Shown here in pieces: positions 3,827-63,874 of a DNA stretch of 64,000 nt. The notes beneath the pieces are model-generated. The model had not been told where the DNA came from and made no database searches. It was given only the letters and a program-made list of their open reading frames with translations. Every line of letters starts with the position of its first letter. The first letter of the stretch is position 1. A program made the position numbers and the translations under genes. This DNA comes from an uncultured Bacteroidales bacterium (GTDB lineage Bacteria > Bacteroidota > Bacteroidia > Bacteroidales > Paludibacteraceae): assembly GCA_902800525.1 (NCBI GenBank), contig CADCEV010000005.1:1-64000 (forward strand). The letters run 5' to 3'.

Positions 3827-4883
3827 TCCCCCATTTGGCGACGATTTCATCCATGATGGCGAAGACTTCTGCGACCGTTTCTGCGCGGAGAAGGGCGATG
3901 CGGGTCTGTTTGAAGTCGGTGAGGCCTTTGAAAACCGGCGAGGCTGCAAAATGCCGGCGGGAATGGATGATACCTTTGCGTTCATCGTTGCCACACCACG
4001 CGATAGAGGCGAGGACGTGCTCTTTGAGGACAGCGACTTTGTCGCTCATAGAGCGAGGGATCGTGATCTCGTGATCACGTGATCTCGTGAATGAGGGATC
4101 AATATATTCTTTCATTTCGGCGAAGAGCCACGGGGCGCCGAAGGTAGCACGTCCGACCATGATGGCATCCACGCCGTAACGGTCGAAACACTCGCGGGCG
4201 CGTTCGGGCGTACACACGTCCCCGTTACCTATAATAGGTATATGCATACGCGGGTTATTCTTCACTTCTCCGATGAGGGTCCAATCCGCCTCACCGCGGT
4301 ACATCTGCGAACGCGTACGGCCATGGATTGCCAGTTCCTGAATACCACAGTCCTGCAGGGCTTCCGCGAGATCTACGATAAAGAAAGAAGCCTCTCCCCG
4401 ACCCTCCCCTGAAGGGAAGGGAGTGTTGATTCCCAAAGGATTGAAACGGGGATGAAGGTCATCGTCATTCCACCCTAGGCGGGTTTTGGCGGTAACGGGT
4501 GTATGAACGGCATTGACCACAGCGCGGGTGATTTCCAACATCTTGGGCACGTCGCGGAGCAATCCTGCGCCGGCGCCTTTGCCCGCCACTTTCTTTACCG
4601 GGCAGCCGAAATTGATGTCAATGAAGTCCGGTTTCGCCTGCTCGACGATGAGTGCAGCATCGCGCATAGCTTCGGGTTCACGGCCGTAGATCTGTATCGC
4701 AACCGGCCGCTCTGCATCCGAGATCGTCAGTTTGCGCGTGGTAGAGGCGATGTCGCGCACGAGCGCGTCGGCATTGACGAACTCGGTATAGACGCGATCC
4801 GCGCCGTAACGCTTGCATAACGCACGGAAGGCAGGATCGGTCACGTCCTCCATGGGAGCCAAATATAATTTTTTGTCGTTCAT
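3816..4883 (-). CDS. dusB: tRNA-dihydrouridine synthase B (DusB-type)
   Basis: FMN-dependent reductase that reduces uridine to dihydrouridine in tRNA D-loops. The 355-residue TIM barrel opens with LYLAPMEDVTDPAFR (6-20). The catalytic Cys is C94 in DINFGCPVKKV; IPIIGNGDV (215-223) and IMVGRATFGAPWLF (241-254) are FMN phosphate-site segments. I start at the ATG at 4883; a TTG at 4904 would add seven residues but lies inside a palindrome. It is longer than usual because of two inserted repeat peptides: a C/G-rich palindrome gives TPFPSGEGRGE (about 154-164), and an octamer array gives TRSRDHEITIPRS (about 266-278). Both sit where loops are expected, so the enzyme is probably active. It follows the 7TM-HD gene with a 33-bp gap. 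Confidence 0.92.
   Translation of the reverse strand: MNDKKLYLAPMEDVTDPAFRALCKRYGADRVYTEFVNADALVRDIASTTRKLTISDAERPVAIQIYGREPEAMRDAALIVEQAKPDFIDINFGCPVKKVAGKGAGAGLLRDVPKMLEITRAVVNAVHTPVTAKTRLGWNDDDLHPRFNPLGINTPFPSGEGRGEASFFIVDLAEALQDCGIQELAIHGRTRSQMYRGEADWTLIGEVKNNPRMHIPIIGNGDVCTPERARECFDRYGVDAIMVGRATFGAPWLFAEMKEYIDPSFTRSRDHEITIPRSMSDKVAVLKEHVLASIAWCGNDERKGIIHSRRHFAASPVFKGLTDFKQTRIALLRAETVAEVFAIMDEIVAKWGSDS
4057..4092. repeat. GATCTCGT/GATCACGT octamer array inside dusB
   Basis: Units gatcgt, gatctcgt, gatcacgt and gatctcgt run in tandem and in frame, giving SRDHEIT in the C-terminal helical part of DusB. Confidence 0.8.
4391..4425. repeat. C/G-rich palindrome inside dusB
   Basis: A stem made of ccctcccct and gaagggaaggg, flanked by ctctccccg. 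In frame it encodes PFPSGEGRGE on the minus strand. It belongs to a family of at least 13 copies in the window. Confidence 0.85.
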
Positions 4884-4895
4884 TGACGATTTGGG

Positions 4896-4915
4896 ATCGA
4901 CCAAGATTGGTCGAT
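4896..4915. repeat. Perfect 20-bp palindrome between the 7TM-HD gene and dusB
   Basis: ATCGACCAA, two bases, TTGGTCGAT. A copy with one mismatch lies inside the start of pcrB (8003-8022). It could act as a protein site, a processing hairpin or a palindromic insertion; there is no T-run on either side to support a terminator. Confidence 0.7.
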
Positions 4916-4916
4916 A

Positions 4917-8050: not shown

Positions 8051-8673
8051 TGGAAGGTTTCTACCATTTTGATGACATCTGTGCGGAGATAGTTATATAC
8101 CGGTGCCAATGAATCGGCGTTCGGCGGACAGTTGCAATAGACCGACGCACGGAAGAAATGACGCGTGGAGTCGGTCACAAAGAACTGACAGGACGAGGCG
8201 GTGTTGCCTTCCAGGTCGAAGAGTACGCCATAGACATCCGCTTCGGGGTGATTGTATTCGCGTTCGGGTATTGCATTTGCAAACGAAGCATTGCGATAGA
8301 CGAACTCCAAAGCATCGTTGGTCAGCTCACGCAAGTTGTTCCGAACCGGTTTGTATGAACAATGGATCGTGGCATTCAAAGCCGGGTAGTAGAGGTTGAT
8401 CCAAAACGGTTCTCCGTCCTTCTTAACCGGCAGAACTACTGCGTTTTGGGAAAGAGCAAAAGAATAGGGATAAGCCTCCCTCAATCCCCCCTTAATGGGG
8501 GAAGAGAAATCCGTATAGGCGGTGTCAGGGACTGTGATTCGGTAATAACCATACGGACGCGGGGTATAGTTATTGGAGCATGAGACACATGCTAACAACA
8601 GGAGAATGGATAATTGACAATTGAGAATGGATAATTGACAATTGAATTTTCTATTTTTTTGCAAAAAGCCCAT
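8038..8673 (-). CDS. gldD: Gliding motility lipoprotein GldD
   Basis: GldD is an envelope lipoprotein needed for gliding in Flavobacterium and retained in type IX secretion-bearing Bacteroidota. The TPRPYGYYRI opening after the lipid Cys, and the INLYYPALNATIHCSYKP and TDSTRHFFRASVYC segments, identify the family. I start at ATG 8673: an upstream ATG at 8706 lies across the promoter -7 box (8693-8700). The lipobox is LLAC; the n/h-region of the signal peptide (KFNCQLSILNCQLSILLLLAC) is largely encoded by a heptad array. A C/G-rich palindrome adds SSPIKGGLREA after about residue 54. It is the first gene of the five-gene minus-strand operon. Confidence 0.88.
   Translation of the reverse strand: MGFLQKNRKFNCQLSILNCQLSILLLLACVSCSNNYTPRPYGYYRITVPDTAYTDFSSPIKGGLREAYPYSFALSQNAVVLPVKKDGEPFWINLYYPALNATIHCSYKPVRNNLRELTNDALEFVYRNASFANAIPEREYNHPEADVYGVLFDLEGNTASSCQFFVTDSTRHFFRASVYCNCPPNADSLAPVYNYLRTDVIKMVETFQWTK
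8475..8506. repeat. C/G-rich palindrome inside gldD
   Basis: cctccctcaatccccccttaatgggggaag-type hairpin, in frame, encoding SSPIKGGLREA. Confidence 0.8.
8601..8648. repeat. TTGACAA heptad array forming part of the GldD signal peptide
   Basis: Heptads (ggataat, tgacaat, tgagaat, ggataat, tgacaat, tg) read on the minus strand as NCQLSILNCQLSI, directly upstream of LLLLAC. Confidence 0.88.
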
Positions 8674-8692
8674 ATTATTCCAAAATACGATG

Positions 8693-8700
8693 CAAAGATA
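8693..8700 (-). promoter_or_regulatory. Promoter -7 box of the gldD operon
   Basis: TATCTTTG on the minus strand, 20 nt before the gldD ATG at 8673. The -33 position falls in an AATTAAA array (8711-8740) and is weak. It fixes the gldD start, because the upstream ATG would overlap this box. Confidence 0.65.
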
Positions 8701-8710
8701 CAACAAATAA

Positions 8711-8954: not shown

Positions 8955-8988
8955 TAACAACCATAAAAAACACAGATATACATTTATT

Positions 8989-10212: not shown

Positions 10213-10262
10213 GAATTCACAATTCACAATTCACAATTCACAATTTATAATTACGAATTACA
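10213..10262. repeat. ACAATTC heptad array after manC
   Basis: Five units, then TTATAATTA. The copy at 16861-16905 is almost identical over about 38 bp, including the tail, which points to duplication of the whole block. Confidence 0.92.
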
Positions 10263-26113: not shown

Positions 26114-28120
26114 ATGAAAAAAAGTATAATGTGTAGTACCGGTGTAGATTGCGCCGGTACTATATTTTTGCCTTTTGAGGACGAGACTCCGTCTCAACTG
26201 TATGCAGAGGAGACCGAGATACAGAGACCCTCTTTGCGTCGCGCTCCGATTACAGTATGCGAAGAGGGCTGGGTTGCTACGCCAGACAATGGAAAGACAC
26301 TCTTGTCTAAAAGTTCTTACGATGTCCCTATCGGTTCGCCAAATGTCCTTTTGATTTTTGCTTTCTTTTACATGTGCTACAAATCCTATCTGCGCCATAA
26401 ACGCGCTGCTATTCTTATCCTTCTTCTCTGCCTTTCGCCCCTGAATAGTCTTCATGCAAACATCACCGCTCTTCGGCTGAATGCGGAGGCGTTCACAGCC
26501 GGCAGCAATATCCGTATCGAGCCAACTATCGCATCCGTTCCAGAAGGAGAGGTGTATATCTGCTGGTCGCTCTATTCAGACGCAGCCTGCACTCACGAAG
26601 TAGAAGGCTTCCGGTTTCATATTGATGCAGGCTTTGGCCACAATGCGGTTCAATGTACGGCTCCGACGATAGCGGGCACTTATTACCTCCATACGGCTAT
26701 TCACACGGAAGGCGGATGTATGGGGAGTATCGATTCGTACATAGTCTCACCGCTGATTGTATATCCTGAGGACGCAGATATTGTGTTCCGTCGTGATGCA
26801 CAGTCACCCGCCACGGTTCATCTTTTTCATGAGTCTGAATCGATGCGGGCTTATGCGGCAGTGCGGATTAGCCGTGCGACACTCGACAATCCGGAGTTGA
26901 GCGAATACGAGCGGTACAACTATTGGATTTCCTTTCCTTTTGATATACAGTTATCGGACATACATGGTTTCGGTACTATCGGAGAAGATTGGCGAATCTG
27001 TTATTACGACGGTCTTGGTCGTGCCCAAGAGGGATATTTTGCGGAACGGACGACCAACTGGGTTGCATTCGCGGACACCGATTCGGTCTTACATGCGGGT
27101 CAGGGATACCTATTGCAGTTCAATCCAGTCCAGATAGCATCACACGGCGATGGTCTATGGACGAACGGCGATGTAGGAACACTCTATTTCCCCGCCCAAT
27201 CCCGCATCTCGGAGATCATGAGTTGCGATGTAACTATTGCGGGTCTTCCGGAGAGTTACCGTTGCACGATCGACCTGTCCGATCAGTTAGGACCGGAAGG
27301 CGACCGTCGCAACAAAGACAGTTACTGGCGTTGCATCGGGATCCCCGGTTGGGGAGTTCCCAGTTCTCTTGACGGTGTATCGTACTTATACGAATGGGAT
27401 TCGTCAGACAACAGTCTTGAAGTTGTTCCGGCGGAGGGTTATGCCTTTGCTCCGGGTCACGCCTACCTGATTCAGAACGGCGATGCGTTCACCTGGCGAG
27501 GGCTGATTGTTCCGCGTTCAGCGTCTGAAGAACCATGGCGAGAGGGTGCTACATACAGCCAATACCGGATCGAAGTGTCAGAGAAGGAGTCGGTTCACGA
27601 CCGGACGTATATCCGTCTGAGCAATGAGGCATGGGTGACAGCCGGATTCGACTTAGGGCACGATTTGAGCAAAGAATGGAATAGCGGTCGCGCGAACATA
27701 TACACCCTGATTGAAGAAGAGTACGCAGCAGCCAATTGTATTCCCGACGATGATCAAAAGATCATTATTCCCCTCGGGTTGACCATACCGGTAGCAGGCA
27801 TTTACCGCATAGCGATAGGAGAAGCGAGTCAAGAGGATGAGTTAACCTCGTACGAGTCAGGGAAGCGCGGCACGGTGTTGGTGGATCGAGAGAGTAACCG
27901 ACGGACCACATTGAGCGGAGGGGAAGGATATACGGTATTCTTAGAGAAAGGCAGACATGATGACAGGTTCTATATAGAGATACCGCCGGCAAGTGTATTG
28001 CCGACGGAAACAAGAGTGACCGTGGCAGAAGAGAGAGGGAGGAAGGTCTGGATGAACGGCGGGCTTTATATCCTTCGCGGAGCGGATGTTTACACACTTC
28101 AGGGAATTAAAATTAAATGA
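26114..28120 (+). CDS. Secreted protein of unknown function with an N-terminal PIGSP-membrane segment
   Basis: As one ORF, 668 residues. Residues 1-73 are soluble with RRAPITVCEEGWVATPDNGKTLLS; 71-110 is hydrophobic (VPIGSPNVLLIFAFFYMCYKS, basic RHKR, then AAILILLLCLSPLNSLHA). A start at Met87 (26372) would give a standard signal peptide and a 582-residue secreted protein, so the first 86 residues may be a separate small membrane protein fused or overlapping in frame. The exported part is beta-rich with Trp/Tyr-rich segments and no motif I can assign, and ends GLYILRGADVYTLQGIKIK, a tail similar to that of the 322-2517 protein. It follows glgP by 15 bp and is probably on its transcript. Confidence 0.6.
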   Translation: MKKSIMCSTGVDCAGTIFLPFEDETPSQLYAEETEIQRPSLRRAPITVCEEGWVATPDNGKTLLSKSSYDVPIGSPNVLLIFAFFYMCYKSYLRHKRAAILILLLCLSPLNSLHANITALRLNAEAFTAGSNIRIEPTIASVPEGEVYICWSLYSDAACTHEVEGFRFHIDAGFGHNAVQCTAPTIAGTYYLHTAIHTEGGCMGSIDSYIVSPLIVYPEDADIVFRRDAQSPATVHLFHESESMRAYAAVRISRATLDNPELSEYERYNYWISFPFDIQLSDIHGFGTIGEDWRICYYDGLGRAQEGYFAERTTNWVAFADTDSVLHAGQGYLLQFNPVQIASHGDGLWTNGDVGTLYFPAQSRISEIMSCDVTIAGLPESYRCTIDLSDQLGPEGDRRNKDSYWRCIGIPGWGVPSSLDGVSYLYEWDSSDNSLEVVPAEGYAFAPGHAYLIQNGDAFTWRGLIVPRSASEEPWREGATYSQYRIEVSEKESVHDRTYIRLSNEAWVTAGFDLGHDLSKEWNSGRANIYTLIEEEYAAANCIPDDDQKIIIPLGLTIPVAGIYRIAIGEASQEDELTSYESGKRGTVLVDRESNRRTTLSGGEGYTVFLEKGRHDDRFYIEIPPASVLPTETRVTVAEERGRKVWMNGGLYILRGADVYTLQGIKIK

Positions 28121-28122
28121 CA

Positions 28123-28163
28123 GTCCCCCACCCCCCTCAGAAAAAGGGGGGATGGGGGTAGTC
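28123..28163. terminator. C/G-rich palindrome between convergent genes, possible bidirectional terminator
   Basis: Stem CCCCCC/GGGGGG with loop TCAGAAAAA, flanked by partial repeats (tccccca, tgggggta). It belongs to the palindrome family found inside genes, but here lies exactly between two convergent stop codons (28120 and 28186) and could end both transcripts, although no T-run is present. Confidence 0.5.
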
Positions 28164-29262: not shown

Positions 29263-29360
29263 TACAATTCACAATTTACAATTCACAATTCACAATTTAC
29301 AATTCTTAGCCCTAAAGGGCACGATTATTTGGCAAAGCCAAATTTTTACAATTATTTTTT
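29263..29360. repeat. Composite array with two hairpins between truA and murG
   Basis: ACAATTC/ACAATTT heptads (29263-29305), hairpin GCCCTAAAGGGC (29309-29320), CGATTA, hairpin TTTGGCAAAGCCAAA (29328-29342), then TTTACAATTATTT. A structurally parallel element with different stem sequences is at 59832-59980. The truA stop codon lies in the first hairpin. Confidence 0.85.
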
Positions 29361-31835: not shown

Positions 31836-31836
31836 A

Positions 31837-33156: not shown

Positions 33157-33180
33157 TTGCACGAACCTTCATTTTTGTTA

Positions 33181-40657: not shown

Positions 40658-42087
40658 CGTTTCGCGCCCCTACCGATTCGGTTCCAGCGGATCGAGTGTG
40701 TATCTTTGTCAATGGAGAGCCAGATGAACACCGGTCTTCCGACAATGTGATCTTCGGGCACAAATCCCCAATAGCGGCTATCGGCGCTATTATGGCGGTT
40801 ATCGCCCTGCATCCAATAATAATCCATTGAGAATTCGTACTCCTCGCCTATCGTCATCGGTTTGAACTCATAGGCGTCGGCAATGCGTTTATAGAGCCAA
40901 TAGTTCTCCTCTGTGATCAGCAGTTTGTCCCCTTTTCGAGGGATATAGATCGGTCCGTAGTTATCTCGCGTCCAAGACCCCTCCGGCTCCCCTGAAGGGG
41001 AGAGACGGGTATAGGCGTGACCTAAAGGATAGACGGCACCGCCGCGTTCCTCGGGTTCTACAATGACAGATAGCACATGCGGATTTTTCTCCAGTTCTTC
41101 CTTCATTGCTTTCGTCAGCGGGAAATGCCAGATCGTTGCATTCACTTGCACACGATCGGCTACGCTGATGCCGATTTTCTCCAAGTATTTGGCGCCGAAC
41201 ATATGTCCATCCGTTTGCACATAGTAATTGAGTTGCAAGCCCTCTCTATCCGGCTCCTGAAGCCAAGAAGAAGACCCCTCCTGCTCCCCTGAAGGGGAGA
41301 GACGGGAGGATTTTGTATAGATTACATTATCTACTATTTTCAGGCTGTCACCCGGTGTACCGACACAACGTTTTACGTAGTTCTCACGTCGATCAACAGG
41401 CCGCGTGATGATCTCACCAAACACATCCTTGCGGGTTTTGATCAAGGTCTCACCGTGGTAATGTTTGAGCGAATAATAGTCCGGGTTCTGCATTTTAAGG
41501 CACACCGTGTCTCCGGCGGGGAAGTTAAAGACGACGATGTCTCCTTTTTGTGGTTTGGTCCAGCCCTTCAAGCGCTTGTAGCCCCAGTGGGGGTTATCGA
41601 AATAGCTCTTTCCTCCGCCGAGCCATTCAGGCATAGTATGTTGAACGAGCGGCATAGAGAGCGGTGTTTGCGGCACACGGGCGCCGTACGCCATTTTGCT
41701 GACATAAAGGAAATCCCCTACCCGCAGGCTTTTCTCCAGAGAAGACGAAGGTATCTGGTAATTCTGGAAGATATAGAGATTGATGAAGTACACCGCCACG
41801 AGTGCAAATACAATCGCGTCTATCCAGGAGAAGAGGGTATAAAGGGCAGGTTTGGTATCTTTATATTTCTTCCACCAAGTGTAGTTAATATACTTCGTTG
41901 TGAAGGCATCCACGATAAGCGGGAGCAGTGCTAACCACGCCAGACTCTTCCAATCGCCCCATGCGACCCAGATCACGAACGCCACATAGAGGATGCTCCA
42001 AATCCCTGCGCGAATCCATGCTCCACGCGGGGTTTCGATTATTCTTTGTCTCAGAGAGAGACTATTATTTTCCTGAAAATTTTTCAT
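40654..42087 (-). CDS. lepB: Signal peptidase I
   Basis: 477 residues. Removes signal peptides at the outer face of the cytoplasmic membrane. Membrane helices at about 25-60 and 85-108; catalytic Ser116 in IPSSSLEKSLRVGDF, catalytic Lys239 in RRENYVKRCVGTPGDSL, and the box MQGDNRHNSADSRYWGFVP near the C-terminus. Two copies of the C/G-rich palindrome lie in frame, giving RLSPSGEQEGSSSWLQE (about 262-278) and RLSPSGEPEGSWTRD (about 356-370). Both are in the beta-rich domain II region where Bacteroidota LepB varies. It overlaps dapB by ATGA and WbqC by ATGA. Confidence 0.93.
   Translation of the reverse strand: MKNFQENNSLSLRQRIIETPRGAWIRAGIWSILYVAFVIWVAWGDWKSLAWLALLPLIVDAFTTKYINYTWWKKYKDTKPALYTLFSWIDAIVFALVAVYFINLYIFQNYQIPSSSLEKSLRVGDFLYVSKMAYGARVPQTPLSMPLVQHTMPEWLGGGKSYFDNPHWGYKRLKGWTKPQKGDIVVFNFPAGDTVCLKMQNPDYYSLKHYHGETLIKTRKDVFGEIITRPVDRRENYVKRCVGTPGDSLKIVDNVIYTKSSRLSPSGEQEGSSSWLQEPDREGLQLNYYVQTDGHMFGAKYLEKIGISVADRVQVNATIWHFPLTKAMKEELEKNPHVLSVIVEPEERGGAVYPLGHAYTRLSPSGEPEGSWTRDNYGPIYIPRKGDKLLITEENYWLYKRIADAYEFKPMTIGEEYEFSMDYYWMQGDNRHNSADSRYWGFVPEDHIVGRPVFIWLSIDKDTHSIRWNRIGRGAKR
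40976..41009. repeat. C/G-rich palindrome inside lepB, copy 1
   Basis: Core GCTCCCCTGAAGGGGAGAGA. It differs from copy 2 by one base in about 33 bp. Confidence 0.9.
41272..41309. repeat. C/G-rich palindrome inside lepB, copy 2
   Basis: Same core, preceded by GACCCCTCCT and followed by CGGG. About 265 bp from copy 1 in the same gene. Confidence 0.9.
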
Positions 42088-42904: not shown

Positions 42905-43525
42905 CTACACCCATTGTGTTAATTTTTCCACTATTTCGGGGATTGGAGTGCTTCCGTCGTTTAGCACGACGATTGTTTTGCGATCCGGATGCAGTTGTTG
43001 AAAGTGCCCTTGCGCATGTATGCGGGCGCGTACCTTATTTATATTGTCGGGAGAGGCGAGTCCGTTATAGTCGCGTGCAATAGTTCGCGCGATGCGGATG
43101 TCTTCGGGCGCATCGACGAGTATGATCTTATCGCACAGGCTATCCAAGCCGGATTCGTATAAGATAGCGGATTCGACGAAGAGAGAGCCCCCTCCCGACC
43201 TCCCCATAGAGGAGAGGAGAGATAAGATGTCGGCCTTGACGGCAGGATGAATGATGGCGTTTAGTTGCTCCAAAAGAGCCTCTCCCGACCTCCCCTGAAA
43301 GGAAGGAGAGAACACGCATTTGCTGATATATTGTGTGTTGTAAATGCCGTTGATGAAGGCTTCTTCGCCGAAGAGGGATATAATTTTTTGCTGCACCTCT
43401 TTGTTTTCAGCGATGATGCGTTTGGCTTCGCGGTCACAGTCATAGACAGTGAAGCCGCGGGCTTCCAAAGCGCGTGCGATAGTGGATTTACCACTTCCTA
43501 TGCCTCCTGTGATACCGATGAGCAT
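42905..43525 (-). CDS. coaE: Dephospho-CoA kinase
   Basis: 206 residues. Last step of coenzyme A synthesis (3'-phosphorylation of dephospho-CoA). P-loop GITGGIGSGKSTIA (4-17), YDCDREAK, LFVESAILYESGL (lid and CoA-binding area) and NDGS.. at the end. Two C/G-rich palindromes in frame give FSPSFQGRSGEALLE (about 71-85) and SSMGRSGGGSLF (about 104-115), the latter immediately before the conserved VESAILYE segment. The gene ends the MBOAT-coaE run with a clear terminator. Confidence 0.92.
   Translation of the reverse strand: MLIGITGGIGSGKSTIARALEARGFTVYDCDREAKRIIAENKEVQQKIISLFGEEAFINGIYNTQYISKCVFSPSFQGRSGEALLEQLNAIIHPAVKADILSLLSSMGRSGGGSLFVESAILYESGLDSLCDKIILVDAPEDIRIARTIARDYNGLASPDNINKVRARIHAQGHFQQLHPDRKTIVVLNDGSTPIPEIVEKLTQWV
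43186..43222. repeat. C/G-rich palindrome inside coaE, copy 1
   Basis: gcccctcccgacctcccc-ata-gaggagaggag-type hairpin, in frame. Confidence 0.85.
43276..43311. repeat. C/G-rich palindrome inside coaE, copy 2
   Basis: cctctcccgacctcccctgaaaggaaggagag-type hairpin, in frame, 54 bp from copy 1 and in the same orientation. Confidence 0.85.
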
Positions 43526-43567: not shown

Positions 43568-45505
43568 TTAGAATTGGAAGTATATAAAGGGTTGCATTTC
43601 GGCGGTGACGAATTGGTAGATGACGACGATGGCAAGGCAAACGACGATGACCATGAGCCATAGAGGCATGGCGCTGAAGGCAAGGCGGTAACGTCTCTTC
43701 CAGTTGGTAGGAAGCCAGTGAATGAGCATGCCGGCAACGAACATCGCCACGACGTATTTGTATGCCCAGAGGAACTCGGGAATAATAGCGTTATTCCATG
43801 CGCCTCCGATCTGGTTCACCATGTTTCGGGCGGTTTCCCACGCTACCTCATTGGCTGTTGCCGGGTCGAGATTAGAGGACGAACGGAAGAACAGACGTGT
43901 GAAGGTGATGAACGTGAAGGTTTGCAGTATAGCCCACGCTTTGGATAATTTAGAATTGATAATTGACAATTGACAATTAATAGTCATGTCCTGCGTGATG
44001 AGCCAATAGACATAACGAATAGCGGTGCCGATCCATATGATTGCCGACCAAACCAAGAAAAGCCTCCAAACCGGCAGGGCGTAGAAATAGTCCAACGCCA
44101 TGAGTCCGAAGGTGAGTACGGTGATGGAAAGGAAGCGCAGATGCCAGTTCATCTTCCGCCATATTTTCTCCACGATCATTCCTATTCCGTTGATGCCGCC
44201 CCAGATGATGAAATTCCAGCTCGCTCCGTGCCATAGACCGCCCAGCACTTGGGTGATGAAGGAGTTGAGATTGGAGTAGAGCAGTTTATAAAAGCCTGTT
44301 CCCCACCTCTCCCTGAAGGGAGCGGAGTTGATGACAGCCACGACGAGCATAAAGAGTGCAAAGGGTACGAGTATCTGCCACCACCAGTTGGTGAGTGCGG
44401 CGGAGACGAAGGCAATGAGCGAGAGCCAGAAATAGGTACCGAAACCGATCTTCCTGTTACCTCCCAAGGGAATATAGAGGTAGCCTTTTAGCCATCGTCC
44501 AAGCGACATGTGCCAGCGGCGCCAGAACTCCTGCGGGCTTTGGGATTTATACGGGCTATTGAAGTTCATAGGCAGATAGAAGCCCATGAGCATCGCTAAT
44601 CCGATGGCGATGTCGGAATAGCCAGAGAAGTCCGCATAGACCTGCAGCGAATAGGCAAAGAGCGCAAAGAGGTTTTCAAAGCCGGAGAAGAGCAGCGGGT
44701 TATTGAAGACGCGGTCGATGAGGTTCACTGCCAGAAAATCCGACATAATGATTTTCTTCGCCAGACCGTTGAGAATCCAGAAAACAGCGATGCCGAACAC
44801 TCTGCGGCTGAGGTGAAACGGTTTGTACAACTGCGGGATGAACTCTTCCGCACGCACAATAGGTCCGGCAACGAGTTGCGGGAAGAAGGAGACATAGAAA
44901 CCAAAATCGAGGATGTTTTTTACCGGCTGTATGCGTCCGCGATAGACATCGACGGTATAAGAGATAACCTGGAATATATAGAACGAGATCCCCACCGGCA
45001 GGACGATCGTATCCACGCTGAAACGTCCCGCTTCGGCAAATCCGTTGCCGATGTACGCAAAGATATCAAAGACCCGGAAGCCTGTTCCGAAGAGGTCATT
45101 GACCATGTTTGTGAAGAAATAGGCGTACTTAAAATAGGCTAATAGGCCTAAATCGATGATGACGGAAAGGCATAGTAAGCCTTTGGCTATTTGTGGTTTG
45201 TGATGGCTGATGGCTGATTTTATCCGTCCGGCGATGATCCAATCGCTCAGGGTGACAAAGGCGAGAATGAGCAGGAAGAGGCCGGATGTTTTGTAATAAA
45301 AGAACCAGCTGACGAACATCAGATAGATGTTGCGGAGATGGAGTTTTTTATAGGGTGAGCCTAACCCCGACCCTTTCCCGAAAGGAAGGGAGAGCAGCAA
45401 GGCGAAGAGGGCATAGACCAAGGCGAAGAATGCCCAGAAATAGAACTGCGTGAAGAGCAGAGGGCTCTCCGAGTTAAAGGCTAATATGTACTGTAAAAAA
45501 TCCAA
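43568..45505 (-). CDS. MBOAT O-acyltransferase (AlgI/DltB-like)
   Basis: 645 residues, about 12 membrane helices. SFYIFQVISYTVDVYRG, FFPQLVAGPIVRAEEFIPQL, QVYADFSGYSDIAIGLAMLMGF, NSPYKSQSPQEFWRRWHMSLGRWLKGYLYIPLGGNRK and the catalytic His in GGLWHGASWNFIIWGGINGIG identify an AlgI-type acyltransferase that moves acetyl groups across the membrane to a surface polysaccharide. It is inflated by three repeats: SLPFGKGSGLGSPYK (about 40-54), NSAPFRERWGTGFYK (about 395-409) and TINCQLSIINSKLSK (about 512-526). The partner SGNH protein is the next gene upstream. Confidence 0.88.
   Translation of the reverse strand: MDFLQYILAFNSESPLLFTQFYFWAFFALVYALFALLLSLPFGKGSGLGSPYKKLHLRNIYLMFVSWFFYYKTSGLFLLILAFVTLSDWIIAGRIKSAISHHKPQIAKGLLCLSVIIDLGLLAYFKYAYFFTNMVNDLFGTGFRVFDIFAYIGNGFAEAGRFSVDTIVLPVGISFYIFQVISYTVDVYRGRIQPVKNILDFGFYVSFFPQLVAGPIVRAEEFIPQLYKPFHLSRRVFGIAVFWILNGLAKKIIMSDFLAVNLIDRVFNNPLLFSGFENLFALFAYSLQVYADFSGYSDIAIGLAMLMGFYLPMNFNSPYKSQSPQEFWRRWHMSLGRWLKGYLYIPLGGNRKIGFGTYFWLSLIAFVSAALTNWWWQILVPFALFMLVVAVINSAPFRERWGTGFYKLLYSNLNSFITQVLGGLWHGASWNFIIWGGINGIGMIVEKIWRKMNWHLRFLSITVLTFGLMALDYFYALPVWRLFLVWSAIIWIGTAIRYVYWLITQDMTINCQLSIINSKLSKAWAILQTFTFITFTRLFFRSSSNLDPATANEVAWETARNMVNQIGGAWNNAIIPEFLWAYKYVVAMFVAGMLIHWLPTNWKRRYRLAFSAMPLWLMVIVVCLAIVVIYQFVTAEMQPFIYFQF
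43944..43982. repeat. TTGATAA/TTGACAA heptad array inside the MBOAT gene
   Basis: Five units, in frame, encoding INCQLSIINSKLSK on the minus strand in a cytoplasmic or loop segment. Confidence 0.88.
44295..44327. repeat. C/G-rich palindrome inside the MBOAT gene, copy 1
   Basis: ttccccacctctccctgaagggagcggag-type hairpin giving APFRERWGTG. Confidence 0.75.
45359..45394. repeat. C/G-rich palindrome inside the MBOAT gene, copy 2
   Basis: cctaaccccgaccctttcccgaaaggaaggg-type hairpin giving LPFGKGSGLGSP close to the N-terminus. Confidence 0.85.
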
Positions 45506-49655: not shown

Positions 49656-51529
49656 AAGCCCTCCTTATCTAATTTCAGTAAATGATATAATTCTTTGGTC
49701 GATCCGTGTTCGACGAATTGGTCTTTGACGCCGAGCCGGATGATGCGCGGCGAATAGCCATGATCGCTCATCCATTCGAGCACGGCGCTTCCTAAGCCGC
49801 CTGCCAGGATGCCATCTTCGGCGGTGATGACGGTTTGGTAGTTCCTTCCCACTTCGTGGAGGATCTCTTCGTCCAAGGGTTTGAGCCAGCGCATATCGTA
49901 GTGGGCATAGGAAACCCCTCCCGACCTCCCCTCCAAAGAGGAGATCGCTTCGCTCATGGTGTTACCGATAGAGCCGATGGTCAGAACGGCTATGTCTTTG
50001 CCGTCACGGAGTTTGACACCTTTTCCATATTCGACTTTGGGAGTTGGAAGATTGTCCATTTGGGGATTTGTGCGTCCTCTTGGGTAACGGATTGCCACGG
50101 GACCGTTGAGTGTCTCTGCAAGTTTCAGCATCTGACGCAAGTCTTCCGCGGTCATAGGCGCGCAGATTTGCATGTTGGGGATAGGACGCAGGTATGCCAA
50201 GTCCAAGAGGCCATGATGCGTTGCCCCATCATTCCCCACGATACCGGCGCGGTCGATACAGAAGACCACGTGCAAGTTTTGGAGCGCCACGTCGTGGACG
50301 ATGTTGTCATAGGCGCGCTGGAGGAAAGTGGAATAGACATTGCAGTAAGGCAGCAAGCCTGCTTTCGCCATGCCGGCGCTGAAAGTGACGGCATGTCCTT
50401 CGGCGATGCCGACATCGAATACACGGTCGGGCAGTTCTTTTTGCATGATGTTCATCGAACAGCCGGAAGGCATAGCCGGCGTGACACCGACGATTTTTTC
50501 GTTTTGTTTCGCCAAGTCCAGGAGCGTATGGCCAAACACTTCCTGCCATAAAGGCGGGTTATTAGTACCATTTGCCGTCAGTCGTTCGCCGTTCGCCACA
50601 TTAAATTCTCCCGGTGCATGCCAGATGGTCTGGTCGTTCTCCGCAGGGGCATAGCCTTTGCCTTTCTTGGTAATGATATGCAACACTTTGGGTCCGCGGT
50701 GATGCTTGATCTCGCTGAGGATACGTACCAAACCGATGACGTCGTGTCCGTCTGTAGGACCGAAATACCGGATGTTGAGACCTGTGAAGATATTGCTCGG
50801 CTGCTTGCTGAGCATGGCTTTGAGATTATTGTTGCGGCGGAGGATAGCTTGTTTCTTATCCTCGTCCATGAGGTGCATTTTCACCGCCAGACGGTAGAGC
50901 CTCCAGCGCCATTTGTTGTAACGTGCGCTGGTAGTAAGATCGACCAGATATTGGGTAAAACCGCCTTTGAGCGGATCAATCGCCATGTTGTTATCGTTTA
51001 ATACGATAAGGAGGTTGTTTTTGTCCATTGAAGTGTTGTTGAGTCCCTCAAACGCCAAGCCTCCCGTCATGGCTCCATCGCCGATGATCGCCACGGTATT
51101 TGCCTTTGACGCCTCCGAATCGCGGTTTTTGGCATTCCCTATGTCAATTCCCAAAGCAGCGGAAATAGAGTTGCTGGCATGTCCGGCGATGAAGGCATCG
51201 TATTCGCTTTCAGCCGGATTTGTGAAGGGCGAGAGACCTTTGAACTGGCGGTTCGTATGAAAACGGTCGCGTCTGCCGGTTAAGATCTTGTGTGCGTACG
51301 CCTGATGTCCCACATCCCAAACGAGTTTGTCGTTCGGGGTGTCAAAGACATAATGCAAGGCAACGGTCAGTTCGATCGTACCTAAAGACGAGCCTAAATG
51401 TCCCGGGTTCGTACTGAGCGCCTCAATGATGAATTGACGCAGTTCCGCACACACGGCGGGTAATTTCTCCAAGGGGATTTTCTTCAAATCCGCCGGTGAA
51501 TCAATCTTATTGATATAGATATATTCCAT
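49622..51529 (-). CDS. dxs: 1-deoxy-D-xylulose-5-phosphate synthase
   Basis: 635 residues from ATG 51529; the ORF could begin at 51574 but that codon overlaps the promoter box. Condenses pyruvate and glyceraldehyde 3-phosphate with thiamine diphosphate, the first MEP pathway step. GHLGSSLGTIELTVALHYVFD, GDGAMTGGLAFEGLNN..IVLNDNNMAI (ThDP motif GDG...N), and the transketolase-type DRAGIVGNDGATHHG and RYPRGRT are visible. Two repeat insertions: NVANGERLTANGTNN (about 310-324) from GGCGAAC heptads between the ThDP and pyrimidine domains, and SLEGRSGGVSYA (about 540-551) from a C/G-rich palindrome. First gene of dxs-trkA-trkH. Confidence 0.94.
   Translation of the reverse strand: MEYIYINKIDSPADLKKIPLEKLPAVCAELRQFIIEALSTNPGHLGSSLGTIELTVALHYVFDTPNDKLVWDVGHQAYAHKILTGRRDRFHTNRQFKGLSPFTNPAESEYDAFIAGHASNSISAALGIDIGNAKNRDSEASKANTVAIIGDGAMTGGLAFEGLNNTSMDKNNLLIVLNDNNMAIDPLKGGFTQYLVDLTTSARYNKWRWRLYRLAVKMHLMDEDKKQAILRRNNNLKAMLSKQPSNIFTGLNIRYFGPTDGHDVIGLVRILSEIKHHRGPKVLHIITKKGKGYAPAENDQTIWHAPGEFNVANGERLTANGTNNPPLWQEVFGHTLLDLAKQNEKIVGVTPAMPSGCSMNIMQKELPDRVFDVGIAEGHAVTFSAGMAKAGLLPYCNVYSTFLQRAYDNIVHDVALQNLHVVFCIDRAGIVGNDGATHHGLLDLAYLRPIPNMQICAPMTAEDLRQMLKLAETLNGPVAIRYPRGRTNPQMDNLPTPKVEYGKGVKLRDGKDIAVLTIGSIGNTMSEAISSLEGRSGGVSYAHYDMRWLKPLDEEILHEVGRNYQTVITAEDGILAGGLGSAVLEWMSDHGYSPRIIRLGVKDQFVEHGSTKELYHLLKLDKEGLCESLLQAQAK
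49914..49943. repeat. C/G-rich palindrome inside dxs
   Basis: acccctcccgacctcccc-tccaaa-gaggag-type hairpin, in frame, giving SSLEGRSGGV. Confidence 0.82.
50571..50601. repeat. GGCGAAC heptad array inside dxs
   Basis: On the coding strand GGCGAAC, GGCGAAC, GACTGAC, GGCAAAT: four 7-bp units giving NVANGERLTANG in the inter-domain linker. Confidence 0.8.
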
Positions 51530-51571
51530 GTGTTTTCGTTCGCGCACCCGCATACGCAGGCAAATCGGCTG

Positions 51572-51603
51572 CAAAGTTACAAAAAAAAATTGGAATATGC
51601 AAA
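51572..51603 (-). promoter_or_regulatory. Promoter of dxs-trkA-trkH
   Basis: On the minus strand TTTG (51603-51600), 20-bp spacer, TAACTTTG (51579-51572). The ATG at 51529 is 42 nt downstream. Confidence 0.8.
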
Positions 51604-52384: not shown

Positions 52385-52408
52385 TGATACCGATGAGAGA
52401 CAAAGACC

Positions 52409-52434
52409 GTCCCTATCCCCATGAAGGGGAAGAA
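52409..52434. repeat. Short C/G-rich palindrome between mraZ and rsmH
   Basis: ccctatcccc-atg-aaggggaag: a smaller intergenic member of the palindrome family. Confidence 0.6.
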
Positions 52435-52542
52435 TACAAAGAAAAGTAGATTTTTAAACTTCAAGTGGACAGTAGTGATAAAAAGTTGAAAAGTAGAAAA
52501 GTATAAACAGTTGAAAAGTATAAACAGTATAAAATCAGAAAG

Positions 52543-53610
52543 ATGGAAGAAATATATCACATACCGGCGATGCTGAAAGAGACAATCGAGGGTTTGGCGA
52601 TCAAGCCGGACGGCGTGTATGTGGATGTCACGTTCGGAGGAGGAGGGCACAGCCGCGCTATAATGAAGGACTTACACGATGGCGGCAAACTCTTCTCGTT
52701 CGATCAGGACATAGAAGCTTATCAGAACGCAGTTGAACGCGGGTTTATGCAAGAGACACCCCCCGCCCCCCTCTCAAAGGGGGAGAAAGGATATGGGAAA
52801 GGAGAGGATGAAAAGAATGCGGAGACAAAAGGAGATGATGAAAAGAATGAGGATACAAAGGGAGAAAAAGAAGAGAAATGGGTGTTTGTGCATGCGAATT
52901 TCAGGTATCTGAAGAATTGGATGAATTTTTACGGAGTAGAAGAGATAGACGGATTATTGGCGGATTTGGGAGTGAGTTTTCATCATTTTGATTGTCCGGA
53001 GAGAGGGTTTAGTTTTCGGTTTAGCGCGCCGTTGGACATGCGAATGAACCAAACAGGCAAGCGTACAGCGGCGGATGTAGTGAACGGGTATAGCGAGGAA
53101 GAGTTAGCGAAGTTGTTCTGGCTATACGGAGAGATGAAGAACGGTCGTGCGATCGCACGGAATATAGTAAAAGCGCGTGTGCAGAAGCCTATTGAGCGGA
53201 CGGAAGAGTTGGTGGCGCTATTGGCGAAAGGCATACAAGTGATGCCGAACGGCGAGATAGAAGTGCCGACACCATACAAGAAAGATTTAGCACGGATGTT
53301 CCAAGCGCTGCGGATAGAGGTGAATGACGAAATGGGTGCGTTGCGAGAGATGTTGGTGGCAGCGAGAGATCTGTTGAAGCCCGGAGGCCGGATAGCGATA
53401 CTGACTTATCATTCGTTAGAGGACCGATTGGTGAAGAACTTCTTGAGAAGCGGCAATTTGGAGGGAAAGATAGAAAAAGATTTTTACGGAAACGCGCTTA
53501 CGCCGTTTGAGGTGATCGAGAAAGGTCGTGTGGCGGATGAAGAGGAAGTAGCACGCAACCCAAGAAGCCGGAGCGCGAAGTTGCGTGTGGCAGAAAAGAA
53601 AGAACAATGA
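52543..53610 (+). CDS. rsmH: 16S rRNA N4-cytosine-1402 methyltransferase RsmH
   Basis: 355 residues, about 40 more than usual. HIPAMLKETIEGL, YVDVTFGGGGHSRAIM (SAM loop), DLGVSFHHFDCPERGFSF, PLDMRMNQTG, YSEEELAKLFWLYGE and LKPGGRIAILTYHSLEDRLVKNF are family motifs. Residues about 72-110 form an inserted charged segment: PPAPLSKGEKGYGKGE from a C/G-rich palindrome (52756-52800), followed by two copies of a DDEKNxxTKG unit coded by a 27-30-bp repeat. It separates the SAM loop strand from FVHANFRYL. It modifies C1402 together with RsmI (36085). Confidence 0.93.
   Translation: MEEIYHIPAMLKETIEGLAIKPDGVYVDVTFGGGGHSRAIMKDLHDGGKLFSFDQDIEAYQNAVERGFMQETPPAPLSKGEKGYGKGEDEKNAETKGDDEKNEDTKGEKEEKWVFVHANFRYLKNWMNFYGVEEIDGLLADLGVSFHHFDCPERGFSFRFSAPLDMRMNQTGKRTAADVVNGYSEEELAKLFWLYGEMKNGRAIARNIVKARVQKPIERTEELVALLAKGIQVMPNGEIEVPTPYKKDLARMFQALRIEVNDEMGALREMLVAARDLLKPGGRIAILTYHSLEDRLVKNFLRSGNLEGKIEKDFYGNALTPFEVIEKGRVADEEEVARNPRSRSAKLRVAEKKEQ
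52756..52872. repeat. C/G-rich palindrome plus coding tandem repeat inside rsmH
   Basis: A palindrome cccccgcccccctctcaaagggggaga-type (52756-52792), then ggaGATGAAAAGAATGcggagacaaaa and ggaGATGATGAAAAGAATGaggatacaaa, two near-copies, and a purine-only run. All in frame. Confidence 0.82.
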
Positions 53611-59832: not shown

Positions 59833-59980
59833 TTGATAATTGATAATTGATAATTGATAATTGACAATTGATAATTGATAATTGACAATTGATAATTGAT
59901 AATTGACAATTGATAATTCTTATCTCGCTTCGCTCGAACGATTATTTTCGACAAGCGAAAATCTTGATAATTGATAATTT
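59832..59980. repeat. TTGATAA array with two hairpins between murD and ftsW
   Basis: About twelve TTGATAA/TTGACAA heptads (59832-59918), hairpin around CTCGCTTCGCTCGA (59930-59937 region), CGATTA, hairpin TTTTCG-ACAA-GCGAAAA (about 59944-59961), then two more heptads. Same plan as 29263-29360: array, hairpin, CGATTATTT, hairpin, array. Confidence 0.88.
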
Positions 59981-59983
59981 TAA

Positions 59984-61219: not shown

Positions 61220-61251
61220 TATTTAATTTATCATTTTTAATTTAATATATC

Positions 61252-62790
61252 ATGAGAAAGCTTCTACCCTTGCTGCTCATCGCAGCCGTTCTGGGCGCTT
61301 GTTCGCCTGAGTATCAAACGACATCGCAACGCGAGATCGACCGTCTGACCAAAGGCGCTTCTTTCGCCATGCCGAAAGTCCAACTACCCTCTTTCCCTGG
61401 TCGCACGTACAACGTGCTGAACTACGGAGCTGACAACACCGGCGTAGAACTCGCTACGACTGCAATCCAGCAAGCCATTGACGAGTGTACGGCTGCCGGA
61501 GGAGGTACCGTCATCATCCCTGAAGGTATCTACACCACCGGACCGATCACCCTCAAATCAAACGTCCGTCTCTACACCGAGAAGAACTCTTTTATCGTCT
61601 TCTCGCACGACCTCGATCTCTATGAGATCTACGATGAGTGGTTCGAAGGCATCCCTACCAAACGTTGCACAAGCCCGCTCAACGCCCTTGACGCAGAGAA
61701 CATAGCCATCACCGGTTACGGCACGTTCAACGGTAACGGCGATTGGTGGCGTCCCCTCAAGAAAGGCAAAATGGCGCCGTCTCAATGGAAGAAACACCTC
61801 AAAGAGAAAGGTGGCATCGTAGTCAACGATATCTGGTACCCGGATTCTGCATCGTTGCTCGCACAGAGTTATTGCGTGGATCAGAACGTGCCCGTCATCA
61901 CCGATGACAGCCTCTGGCAGGTCGTTAAATCTTTCCTCCGTCCGGTTCTCCTGCATTTTGTAGGATGTAAGAACATCCTCCTCGAGGGCGTGACTTTCGA
62001 GAACTCGCCGGCATGGAACCTTCACCCCATGTGCTGCGAGAACCTCATCCTATGCGACCTGAACGTCCGCAACCCCTGGTATAGCCAGAACGGCGACGGT
62101 GTCGATGTCGAGTCATGCAAGAACGTAGTGATCAGCCGTTGCTCCTTCGATGTCGGTGACGACGCTATCTGCATGAAGTCCGGCAAGGACAAACCCGGAC
62201 GTGACCGCGGTATCCCGACGGAGAACGTGGTAGTGGATGATTGCGTGGTTTATCATGGTCACGGAGGTTTCGTTTGCGGCTCAGAGATGTCCGGCGGTAT
62301 CAAGAATGTCGAAGTGCGCAATAACCTCTATATCGGTACCGATGTCGGTCTGCGCTTCAAATCAACCCGCGGACGCGGCGGTGTTGTGGAGAACATCTAC
62401 ATCAACGGTGTCAACATGGTCAATATCCCGAACGAAGGTCTGCTCTTTGACCTCTTCTACGGCGGTAAAGGCGCAGGCGAGGAGACCGAAGAAGAACTCG
62501 CTGCACGCATGAATGCCGAAGCTCCGCAGGTTAGCGAAGAGACACCGGCATTCAAGAATATCGTTATCGAGAACGTCAAAGGTGCGAACATCAAACGCGC
62601 TATCTATTTCAATGGTCTGCCGGAGATGAAGATCCAGAATGTGACCCTCCGCAATGTGACCATGAGCGCTACCGAAGGCGCGCTCTTCCGTCAGACGAAC
62701 GGTCTCGTCATTGATAACGTCAATATCAAAGCCCAAAAAGGCGAAGCTTTCTCGCTTGCTCCGACGGTAGAAAATGTTAAGATCAATTGA
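61252..62790 (+). CDS. GH28 family pectinase-like lipoprotein
   Basis: 512 residues. Lipoprotein signal: KLLPLLLIAAVLGAC, lipobox LGAC, Cys about 17. Right-handed beta helix with all GH28 catalytic regions: the N-x-D box as NGDGVDVES, the adjacent VGDDAICMKSG (catalytic Asp pair), YHGHGGFVCGSEMSGG and LRFKSTRGRGG (the R-I-K equivalent). Hydrolyses alpha-1,4-galacturonan or rhamnogalacturonan at the cell surface or in the periplasm. It has 32 bp to ftsW and continues in the same direction into the DUF4861 gene, an arrangement seen in pectin utilisation loci. No SusC/SusD genes are in the window. Confidence 0.9.
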   Translation: MRKLLPLLLIAAVLGACSPEYQTTSQREIDRLTKGASFAMPKVQLPSFPGRTYNVLNYGADNTGVELATTAIQQAIDECTAAGGGTVIIPEGIYTTGPITLKSNVRLYTEKNSFIVFSHDLDLYEIYDEWFEGIPTKRCTSPLNALDAENIAITGYGTFNGNGDWWRPLKKGKMAPSQWKKHLKEKGGIVVNDIWYPDSASLLAQSYCVDQNVPVITDDSLWQVVKSFLRPVLLHFVGCKNILLEGVTFENSPAWNLHPMCCENLILCDLNVRNPWYSQNGDGVDVESCKNVVISRCSFDVGDDAICMKSGKDKPGRDRGIPTENVVVDDCVVYHGHGGFVCGSEMSGGIKNVEVRNNLYIGTDVGLRFKSTRGRGGVVENIYINGVNMVNIPNEGLLFDLFYGGKGAGEETEEELAARMNAEAPQVSEETPAFKNIVIENVKGANIKRAIYFNGLPEMKIQNVTLRNVTMSATEGALFRQTNGLVIDNVNIKAQKGEAFSLAPTVENVKIN

Positions 62791-62856
62791 TAATTGATAA
62801 TTGATAATTGATAATTGTATCGAAATGTCTATCTATCGAAATATCGGAATATCAGT
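62788..62856. repeat. TTGATAA and ATCGAAAT arrays at the DUF4861 gene start
   Basis: Four to five TTGATAA units, then octamer-like units (tatcgaaa, tgtctatc, tatcgaaa, tatcggaa, tatcagtt). The second part encodes the signal-peptide n-region MSIYRNIGIS of the next gene. Confidence 0.8.
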
Positions 62857-63874
62857 TATGGGTTTGTTACTCGCGGGTTGTAGCCCGCGGGTAGCCACCT
62901 CTTTCTGGCGAATCGGCACTCCTGCAGATTCGACCAGAGAGGGCTATGCCGTCCTCTATGAGGGCAAGAAAATGCGTCATTGCTACCCTATCACGGAATG
63001 GAAAACAACCGATGAGAAAGAGGACGTCTATCATTCGCTCCACCACCATGGTGTAGCCGTTGAGTCCGAACTCATGGCGTATCGCATCTATTTCGACAAG
63101 AAACAGACCATCGATCCTTATTGCAAACGCAAGCCTCAGCTCGAACTTGCCAAATCATATTGGTACCCCAACGACAGTCTGTTAGCCGAAGGATACGGCG
63201 ATGATATTCTCCGCGTCTCCGGCACTGTTGGTGTCGGTACGGTCAAGTACTGGAACGGCAAAAAGATGGTTCATTTCGAGAATGTCGGCGAGCGCAGCGA
63301 GCGTATCGTTCGCCAGACAAAGAATAGTGCCACGATAGAGGTCGCTATCAAAGATTGGAAGCCATCAAACCTTCAAACTAACGGACAAAGTCCGTCAAAC
63401 TCTCAAACAAGCGAAGCTAAACATGGTCTGGACCTCTCCGTCCAATATACCATGCAAGCCGGTCACCGCGATATGCGCTGCGATGTCTTCTGCTCTTCTC
63501 CCGTTGAAGGCCTTTGTACCGGCGTGCAGACGATCCCTGCTAAGGGAGGAAAAGACACCATTACTATTATTCTCCCCAACGGTGTTTTGTTAGCATCTTG
63601 GGGAACAGATTGGCCGGTGAACGACTCGACTAAGTACGCCAAAGAGACCGTCGGTCTCGGTGTCTTCATCCCTCATCCCTATGCCGGCAGTCCCGTCCAC
63701 GACAAGCAGAACAACCTCTGTCTACTAAATCCCCTTCCCTTTAGGGAGGGGTCAGGGGTAGGCCTTCATTTCTACCTCACCTGTTGCGGTGCCACCAAAG
63801 AAAACCACTCCGTAACAACAACTGCCGAGGAGTGGTTCGCCTATCTCCGCCGTTGGGCAAAGAAACTCAAATAA
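62825..63874 (+). CDS. DUF4861 family lipoprotein, probable pectin-locus protein
   Basis: 349 residues from ATG 62825; an in-frame TTG at 62801 lies in the array and is not chosen. Signal MSIYRNIGISVMGLLLAGC, with lipobox LAGC. The rest fits DUF4861: TDEKEDVYHSLHHHGVAVESELMAYRIYFDKKQTIDPY, FENVGERSERI, DMRCDVFCSS, LPNGVLLASWGTDWPVN and GLGVFIP. The family is found next to pectin- and uronate-active enzymes in Bacteroidota; its activity is not certain to me. Two repeats are inside: KPSNLQTNGQSPSNSQTSEA (about 181-200) and LLNPLPFREGSGVGLHF (about 299-315). Confidence 0.8.
   Translation: MSIYRNIGISVMGLLLAGCSPRVATSFWRIGTPADSTREGYAVLYEGKKMRHCYPITEWKTTDEKEDVYHSLHHHGVAVESELMAYRIYFDKKQTIDPYCKRKPQLELAKSYWYPNDSLLAEGYGDDILRVSGTVGVGTVKYWNGKKMVHFENVGERSERIVRQTKNSATIEVAIKDWKPSNLQTNGQSPSNSQTSEAKHGLDLSVQYTMQAGHRDMRCDVFCSSPVEGLCTGVQTIPAKGGKDTITIILPNGVLLASWGTDWPVNDSTKYAKETVGLGVFIPHPYAGSPVHDKQNNLCLLNPLPFREGSGVGLHFYLTCCGATKENHSVTTTAEEWFAYLRRWAKKLK
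63363..63412. repeat. TCAAACCT array with central palindrome inside the DUF4861 gene
   Basis: TCAAACCT-TCAAACTA, palindrome ACGGACAAAGTCCGT (63385-63399 region), TCAAACTC-TCAAACAA. A small array-hairpin-array composite, in frame and stop-free. Confidence 0.85.
63728..63765. repeat. C/G-rich palindrome inside the DUF4861 gene
   Basis: ccccttccctttagggagggg-type stem, then tcaggggtagg; in frame, giving NPLPFREGSGVG. Confidence 0.88.

Follow-up and report, generated by a model that had tools for sequence, protein, structure and literature searches.

What are the short GC-rich palindromes that lie inside housekeeping genes of an uncultured Paludibacteraceae bacterium (order Bacteroidales), and what might have brought them there? 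The stretch analyzed here, hereafter the window, comprises 64,000 nt of contig CADCEV010000005.1 and contains thirteen such palindromes, eleven in genes and two in spacers, which a preliminary description of the window had likened to Rickettsia palindromic elements (RPEs). We find that the in-gene copies are in-frame insertions of a family spread through the genome, and that in related genomes palindromes of the same build stand as inverted pairs around genes of DUF559, a Vsr-like nuclease family. We therefore consider it likely, with a probability of about 0.68, that the palindromes are elements resembling RPEs and repetitive extragenic palindromic sequences (REPs), with the DUF559 unit as their autonomous partner.

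Palindromes inserted in frame into protein genes

A C-rich-then-G-rich hairpin is present at all 13 places named in the preliminary description, whose host gene assignments are confirmed by a Pfam scan (Dus, GldD, Peptidase_S26, CoaE, MBOAT, DXP synthase, MraW/RsmH and DUF4861), and each of the 11 in-gene copies lies, as had been claimed, in a stop-free frame. The sequence-only profile R1, built from ten in-gene window copies, recognizes 10 of the 13 places at E ≤ 2.2e-5 (dusB, lepB twice, coaE twice, MBOAT twice, dxs, rsmH and DUF4861); as these ten are its own training set, independent support comes from the other matches in the genome. Across the whole 2.39 Mb, R1 finds at least 103 matches at E ≤ 10 and at least 76 at E ≤ 0.01, ten of the latter in the window, these counts being lower bounds because 150 of 557 candidates were scored and the E-values are rough. 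With dozens of further matches genome-wide, the copies are homologous to each other. R1 misses the copy in gldD and the spacer copy near 52409, and matches the spacer copy at 28120 weakly (E = 0.53); by eye the gldD copy looks like a member of the family, and both spacer copies count as degenerate or doubtful.

Each palindrome, ~36 bp in all, is built as a hairpin with a one-sided G-rich tail (for example, CTCCCTTCCCTTCAGGGGAGGG-TC-GGGGAGAGGCTT). RNAalifold, applied to 91 copies aligned with a sequence-only model, predicts six pairs, five of them with compensatory changes, and the predicted hairpin is thus backed by covariation. The sole match of an Rfam scan was one tRNA, which places the palindromes in no known RNA family.

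Relatives lack the palindrome cleanly at several of these sites. In alignments, the second lepB copy faces a clean 12-residue gap in all five relatives spanning the site, the first coaE copy faces a 7-residue gap in all 16 relatives shown, and eight of 19 congeneric loci hold no insert at the dusB site. Elsewhere among the congeners the dusB loop holds the same palindrome subfamily (G022), another subfamily (G021), a third reading (G006) or other repeat-like filler (G003, G015 and G026). The MBOAT, dxs, first lepB and second coaE sites are loops in which relatives carry palindrome, heptamer-type repeats or short filler, and because loop length and content vary in this way, these sites are insufficient alone to prove insertion. 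The neighbors of dxs by sequence come from Paludibacteraceae/Bacteroidales metagenome-assembled genomes of ruminant and other animal guts. In the dxs loop, two relatives have heptamer-type repeats (L148 and L101) and two are shorter (L096 and L098). The in-gene palindromes are in-frame insertions, of which lepB, coaE and dusB of relatives are cleanly free. R1 copy number ranges from 0 to 76 among 37 congeners, and outside the genus R1 matches two of 24 order-level genomes (11 copies in G038, one in G055), both of which have DUF559 inside leucyl-tRNA synthetase (LeuRS). The interpretation in the preliminary description is thus supported overall, as its copies proved homologous and are not fixed features of the host protein families. 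In the dxs and lepB loops of L148, L101 and L095 and the dusB loop of L353, heptamer-type or other short in-frame repeats occupy the place of the window's palindrome, as if unrelated repeat families shared the same tolerant protein sites.

Placement of the palindromes is indifferent to genes. When a copy is counted as in-gene if an open reading frame (ORF) of ≥200 codons encloses it and extends 15 codons beyond it in both directions, 73 of 88 copies fall in long ORFs; among random 36-nt segments the figure is 4495 of 5589 (80.4%, p = 0.69). The set is drawn from 89 copies at ≥14 bits, with C11:36575 left out; the other 14 of the 103 matches, which score lower or overlap, are outside the count. 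In a second species, 23 of 30 copies lie in ORFs versus 78.8% at random. Between-gene copies are therefore the rarer class in number, as the preliminary description observed, and this is not the unusual feature it was taken for, since coding density predicts their share. Relative to the gene, 51 copies have the same sense (20/16/15 across the three phases) and 22 the opposite (16/5/1); the use of all three phases in both senses indicates that the DNA, not one peptide, is what spreads. When random insertions of a multiple of three bases were simulated, the ORF stayed open in 2273 of 3086 trials. The likeness to RPEs is apt for this way of life, in frame, stop-poor and in several reading frames. 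Three near-identical palindrome contexts elsewhere in the genome, near the 3' ends of long ORFs (C13:8549, C17:5596 and C17:23200), are probably one insertion copied through gene duplication.

DUF559 nuclease genes with palindromic ends

DUF559 genes are present in congeners. Four of the six that stand alone (L224, L225, L228 and L236) have inverted R1 copies on both sides within ~100 bp, and the remaining two loci (L226 and L237) have palindromes on both sides by eye. In the units read, the palindrome tails point outward, one end reading, for example, AACCCCTC and the other GAGGGGTT, and a copy in the window's own genome (C4:151590) is identical to the right end of L228 over 29 bases. At L224, near 1442-1500 on the reverse strand, the unit appears by eye to lie between mraY-like and murD genes, where the DUF559 stop overlaps a new in-frame murD start (ATGA), so that the N-terminus of murD is formed by the palindrome tail.

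A sequence-independent flank test pairs the left flank of a unit with the reverse complement of the right one and sets such own pairs against cross pairs. Nine of 60 DUF559 loci were put aside post hoc, after ORF reading, as a different type: a C-terminal domain of a helicase-like protein (L241-L243), Vsr-like genes (L245, L246 and L251) and other or partial forms (L240, L244 and L250). Among the remaining 51, eight are cut by contig ends; in the 43 that are testable, own pairs exceed cross pairs (p = 4e-17), 21 loci lying above the cross-pair 95% level. Inverted flanks are absent from the seven testable loci of those put aside (p = 0.61); for ten Y1 transposase loci p is 0.10, the two positive ones having palindromes of another sequence type. 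The literal tail motif GGGGWSAS is rare, occurring on both sides in 3 of the 43 loci, and the tail is thus better described by each unit's own sequence. Eight of 12 plasmid loci fetched, out of 40 matches listed, also pass the test (p = 1.9e-5); their hosts, Azospirillum, Sphingomonadaceae, Deinococcus and Cyanobacteria, belong to Alphaproteobacteria, Deinococcota and Cyanobacteria, three phyla besides Bacteroidota. Palindromes of this build are consequently no isolated novelty of one genome, since they flank DUF559 genes across phyla.

DUF559 units also lie in frame inside host proteins. Among 29 long-frame DUF559 matches, chosen deliberately and then scanned with Pfam, all combine DUF559 with an unrelated host family, the domain lying within host domains in 23 and at the C-terminus or in an unclear position in six. 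The 23 internal hosts are LeuRS (eight, at two sites), MetH (three), DegT aminotransferase (three), UvrD (two), RecG (two), Type ISP (two), and methylmalonyl-CoA mutase, an Eco57I/TaqI-type protein and HsdR (one each). The palindromes are translated at the joins between DUF559 and host; no intein domain appears among the Pfam matches of the 29 proteins, and the frames are continuous, with no intein or intron detected. Within one genus, in which LeuRS was matched in 39 of 40 genomes, the LeuRS of G140 is enlarged by ~150 residues at site B, in G309, G322 and G337 it is site A that carries a DUF559 unit, and in the LeuRS rows listed the other congeners lack a site B insert of such length; filled and empty sites thus occur within one genus. 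In DNA the unit ends read GCCCCACC...GGTGGGGC at site B and GCCTCACCCC...GGGGTGAGGC at site A, and the G140 gene also carries a solitary in-frame palindrome that L304 lacks. Insertion sites recur (LeuRS site A in six Pfam-scanned loci and three of genus g42, site B in L283-L285, RecG in L295-L297), for which common descent is possible.

The nuclease itself appears to be maintained. Across 42 DUF559 domains, embedded ones included, 11 columns are invariant, and the ratio of nonsynonymous to synonymous substitution (dN/dS) of the LeuRS-embedded domains is 0.05 in the two at site B and 0.09-0.15 in the three at site A, compared with 0.03 for the N-terminal half of the host, values that are rough because synonymous sites are near saturation. 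These comparisons indicate that the embedded domains are under purifying selection and suggest that the nuclease is kept active-looking. The DUF559 profile matches PDB 3hrl (6.7e-34) and 3r3p, a 'Mobile intron protein' (5.6e-7) that we take to be I-Bth0305I. A homing-endonuclease model of PADLOC is matched by 20 of the 42 domains, and two other nuclease-containing models by 32 and 31. A DUF559 gene has been placed in the EDxHD family in PMC9403480.

Palindrome and nuclease also co-occur across genomes. In a survey of 247 Bacteroidota genomes for the exact palindrome CCCTCTCCN{2,6}GGAGAGGG and for strong DUF559 matches (E < 1e-15), the palindrome occurs in 38 of 101 genomes with strong DUF559 versus 11 of 146 without (p = 6.6e-9, uncorrected for shared ancestry), and the reversed pattern, taken as a control, is absent from all 247. 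Without the over-sampled family f42 the figures are 37 of 97 versus 11 of 96 (p = 1.3e-5), and at least five copies are found in 12 of 101 versus 4 of 146 genomes (p = 0.005); some low counts may be the DUF559 unit ends themselves. The genomes of the genus with stand-alone DUF559 hold 1, 5, 28, 42, 45 and 66 palindrome copies (p = 0.023).

Window copies and other repeats

The 13 window copies are collected in Table 1. Pfam matches MraW in rsmH as two stretches, and a 30-nt tandem repeat (52798-52865) directly follows the rsmH palindrome, the rsmH frame being enlarged there.

Table 1. Palindromes of the window, with host genes, encoded peptides and supporting evidence.
Feature	Position	Strand	Gene context and peptide	Evidence
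dusB palindrome	4389..4425	-	gene 3816-4904 (-), peptide NTPFPSGEGRGEA	R1 28 bits; stop-free frame
gldD palindrome-like copy	8470..8505	-	gene 8038-8706 (-), peptide SSPIKGGLREAY	by eye and stop-free frame; missed by R1
Degenerate spacer palindrome	28120..28152	-	upstream of murG-like gene 28186-29259	R1 12 bits, genome-wide E 0.53
lepB second palindrome	40975..41009	-	gene 40654-42087 (-), peptide TRLSPSGEPEGS	R1 22.4 bits; 12-aa gap in 5/5 covering relatives
lepB first palindrome	41271..41305	-	peptide SRLSPSGEQEGSS	R1 22.6 bits; site varies among relatives, with an oppositely oriented palindrome in L101
coaE second palindrome	43186..43221	-	gene 42905-43525 (-), peptide SLLSSMGRSGGGS	R1 25.2 bits; variable loop, L104 has another palindrome
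coaE first palindrome	43277..43310	-	peptide FSPSFQGRSGEA	R1 26 bits; 7-aa gap in 16/16 relatives shown
MBOAT second palindrome	44293..44328	-	gene 43568-45505 (-), peptide NSAPFRERWGTGF	R1 24.3 bits; loop length varies in relatives
MBOAT first palindrome	45358..45393	-	peptide LSLPFGKGSGLGS	R1 20.7 bits; palindrome at same place in L148 and L101, shorter filler in others
dxs palindrome	49912..49945	-	gene 49622-51574 (-), peptide ISSLEGRSGGVS	R1 24.5 bits; common to L094
Weak spacer palindrome	52404..52439	-	upstream of rsmH	by eye alone; missed by R1
rsmH palindrome	52754..52789	-	gene 52543-53610 (+), antisense to gene; peptide ETPPAPLSKGEKG	R1 27 bits; stop-free frame
DUF4861-gene palindrome	63730..63764	+	gene 62801-63874 (+), peptide NPLPFREGSGVGL	R1 25.4 bits; stop-free frame

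The window is rich in repeats of other kinds. Tandem arrays of 7 nt (TCAACTA, AATTCAC, ATAATTG and relatives) are numerous (3742-3825, 8602-8652, 10212-10261, 29264-29305, 59829-59918, 62785-62817 and others); most lie in spacers and some within gene frames, for example at 8602-8652 (gldD frame) and 43937-43987 (MBOAT frame). A 279-nt segment is present in two copies, 83% identical, at 31836-32114 and 33180-33458, and a minus-strand gene contains 9- and 18-nt in-frame repeats at 37071-37297.

Competing explanations and a possible mechanism

Could the palindromes instead be ordinary REPs moved by a tyrosine transposase of the Y1, RAYT type, with the nearness of DUF559 a side effect? REP-flanked RAYTs are well established, as described in PMC3733652, strong inverted palindromes stand at the two positive Y1 loci (L206 and L213), and the window's own genome encodes one marginal Y1-type protein of 333 aa, whose 20.6 bits lie below the family cut-off. 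Yet that gene has no palindrome nearby, the L206 and L213 palindromes differ in sequence type, Y1 matches at E ≤ 0.001 are lacking in G021, G034 and G036, all of them congeners rich in copies, and R1 has no match at 21 Y1 loci, a weak control as only four of these come from the genus. Given the lack of R1 matches and the other palindrome type at Y1 loci, and with the congeneric control being small, a Y1/RAYT transposase is not supported as the mover of the palindromes, and we judge this explanation improbable. The Y1-like gene of the window's genome is a lone gene of Y1/HUH type on contig C16 (L093 781-1782) with the motif CLMPDHIHVIL. The L206 and L213 genes belong to other Bacteroidales families, and with their inverted palindromes they indicate that ordinary RAYT-like units coexist in the order.

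The DUF559 genes might also be passengers, an unrelated process spreading GC-rich hairpins between two of which small nuclease genes survive best. Genomes with palindromes and without strong DUF559 do exist, the present one included, and heptamer-type repeats with no known enzyme occupy the same protein loops; on the other hand, flanks from one and the same DUF559 unit resemble each other more closely than flanks from other units, every unit read has its tails outward, and the link between palindrome and nuclease gene turns up in four phyla. This makes the passenger explanation unlikely in our view, if slightly less so than the transposase. A far weaker contender is that the in-gene copies are no insertions at all, being fast-evolving low-complexity loops that converge on GC-rich codons, as the variable-length MBOAT, dxs and second coaE loops of relatives might suggest. 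Such convergence is contradicted by hairpin DNA that is conserved over both orientations and all phases with compensatory changes, by the identity in type of in-gene copies with copies elsewhere and with DUF559 ends, and by lepB, first coaE and dusB orthologues cleanly without the insert; we consider it very improbable.

A DUF559 unit as the autonomous partner of the palindromes must itself be weighed against several observations. The window's own genome, 92.7% complete (G000), has no DUF559 match at E ≤ 0.001, and G034, a complete relative with 65 palindrome copies, has no palindrome-type DUF559. The flanks of 22 of the 43 DUF559 loci and 4 of the 12 plasmid loci do not rise above the cross-pair level. 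The 11 of 146 genomes that hold the exact palindrome without strong DUF559 include one with 32 copies, the co-occurrence statistics as a whole take no account of shared ancestry, and within the genus copy number follows DUF559 weakly (p = 0.061 for any palindrome-type DUF559, embedded included). The LeuRS insertions, by eye, replaced 15-21 nt of a variable loop with no clean split. The check for target-site duplications proposed in the preliminary description yielded none that could be accepted (k = 2-9 with shifted borders; at best 4 of 88 copies versus 0.56 expected, over 1560 combinations). Finally, no movement of an element was observed.

If DUF559 moves the palindromes, events may proceed as follows. 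Mobile palindromes of ~36 bp would land in any DNA, genes included. Because they have few stop codons and the length added by survivors is divisible by three, the in-gene copies would be translated as tolerated loops of 12-13 residues. They would be non-autonomous members of a larger element consisting of one DUF559 nuclease gene (Vsr-like, EDxHD-related) between two inverted palindromes with tails outward, and the complete unit would also enter host proteins in frame and be translated with the host, with no intein or intron. The nuclease may cut or nick the target and recognize the hairpin-plus-tail ends; repair of the break would then copy in either the hairpin, as a single end, or the whole unit, and selection would retain in-frame, stop-free insertions in tolerant loops. 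The window's genome may once have had its DUF559 partner or may still have it, undetected: the partner could have been lost, could lie in the missing part of the assembly, or may never have been needed.

Set beside known systems, the palindromes share features with several. RPEs, according to PMC2229807, are palindromic DNA of 105-146 bp lying in frame in conserved protein genes and translated. Like RPEs and Wolbachia palindromic repeats, the present elements are in-frame, translated palindromes in conserved protein genes; unlike RPEs, they are ~36 bp, GC-rich, of apparently different sequence, from Bacteroidota and tied to a nuclease gene. In PMC3733652, GTAG and CGTC REPs are 20-40 bp hairpins with an unpaired tag at one end, present in high copy, GTAG REPs also form inverted pairs around a mobility gene, REPs inside genes are reported, and CGTC REPs occur without a dedicated transposase. 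The short hairpin with an unpaired one-sided tail, in many copies, resembles both REP types, whereas the 91-copy alignment has a G-rich tail and no GTAG or CGTC end tag, genes are not avoided as they are by REPs, which lie mostly between genes, and the gene partner is a DUF559 nuclease rather than the tyrosine transposase of RAYT REPtrons. With no such tag, no gene avoidance and no occurrence found at Y1 genes, we do not file the palindrome as a RAYT REP, although it works like one. DUF559 resembles EDxHD (Vsr-like) homing endonucleases such as I-Bth0305I in its profile match to 3r3p and its intact conserved residues, and differs from them in that its gene lies outside any detected intein or intron, is bounded by palindromes and is often in frame inside a host protein. 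As in miniature inverted-repeat transposable elements, short non-autonomous elements are related to the ends of an autonomous one; here, in contrast, a solitary copy is one end (hairpin and one tail), not left joined to right, and no target duplication was found.

Taken together, these features may define a previously unrecognized class of mobile element, a proposal to which we give slightly less than even odds: a DUF559 (EDxHD-type) gene with inverted hairpin-plus-tail ends, found in at least four phyla, that enters protein genes in frame, needs no splicing since host and nuclease form one translated chain linked by the palindromes, and disperses its single ends as 36-bp palindromes that are translated in turn. 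In the open-licence literature we found no paper linking DUF559 with repetitive extragenic palindromic sequences, no title about mobile palindromes among the DUF559 papers listed and no paper on LeuRS with an in-frame insertion, which does not establish absence from print. Such a class could supply the missing mobility enzyme for palindromic repeats without a tyrosine transposase; what moves CGTC REPs is an open question on which the DUF559 link bears. If the proposal is true, orphan bacterial palindromes would gain an autonomous partner, and the question of what moves REP-like repeats without RAYT would become testable. A selfish nuclease would then reside within LeuRS and other proteins with no means of splicing, and its palindromes would explain recurrent odd peptides in bacterial proteins and offer a route to new surface loops and whole domains.

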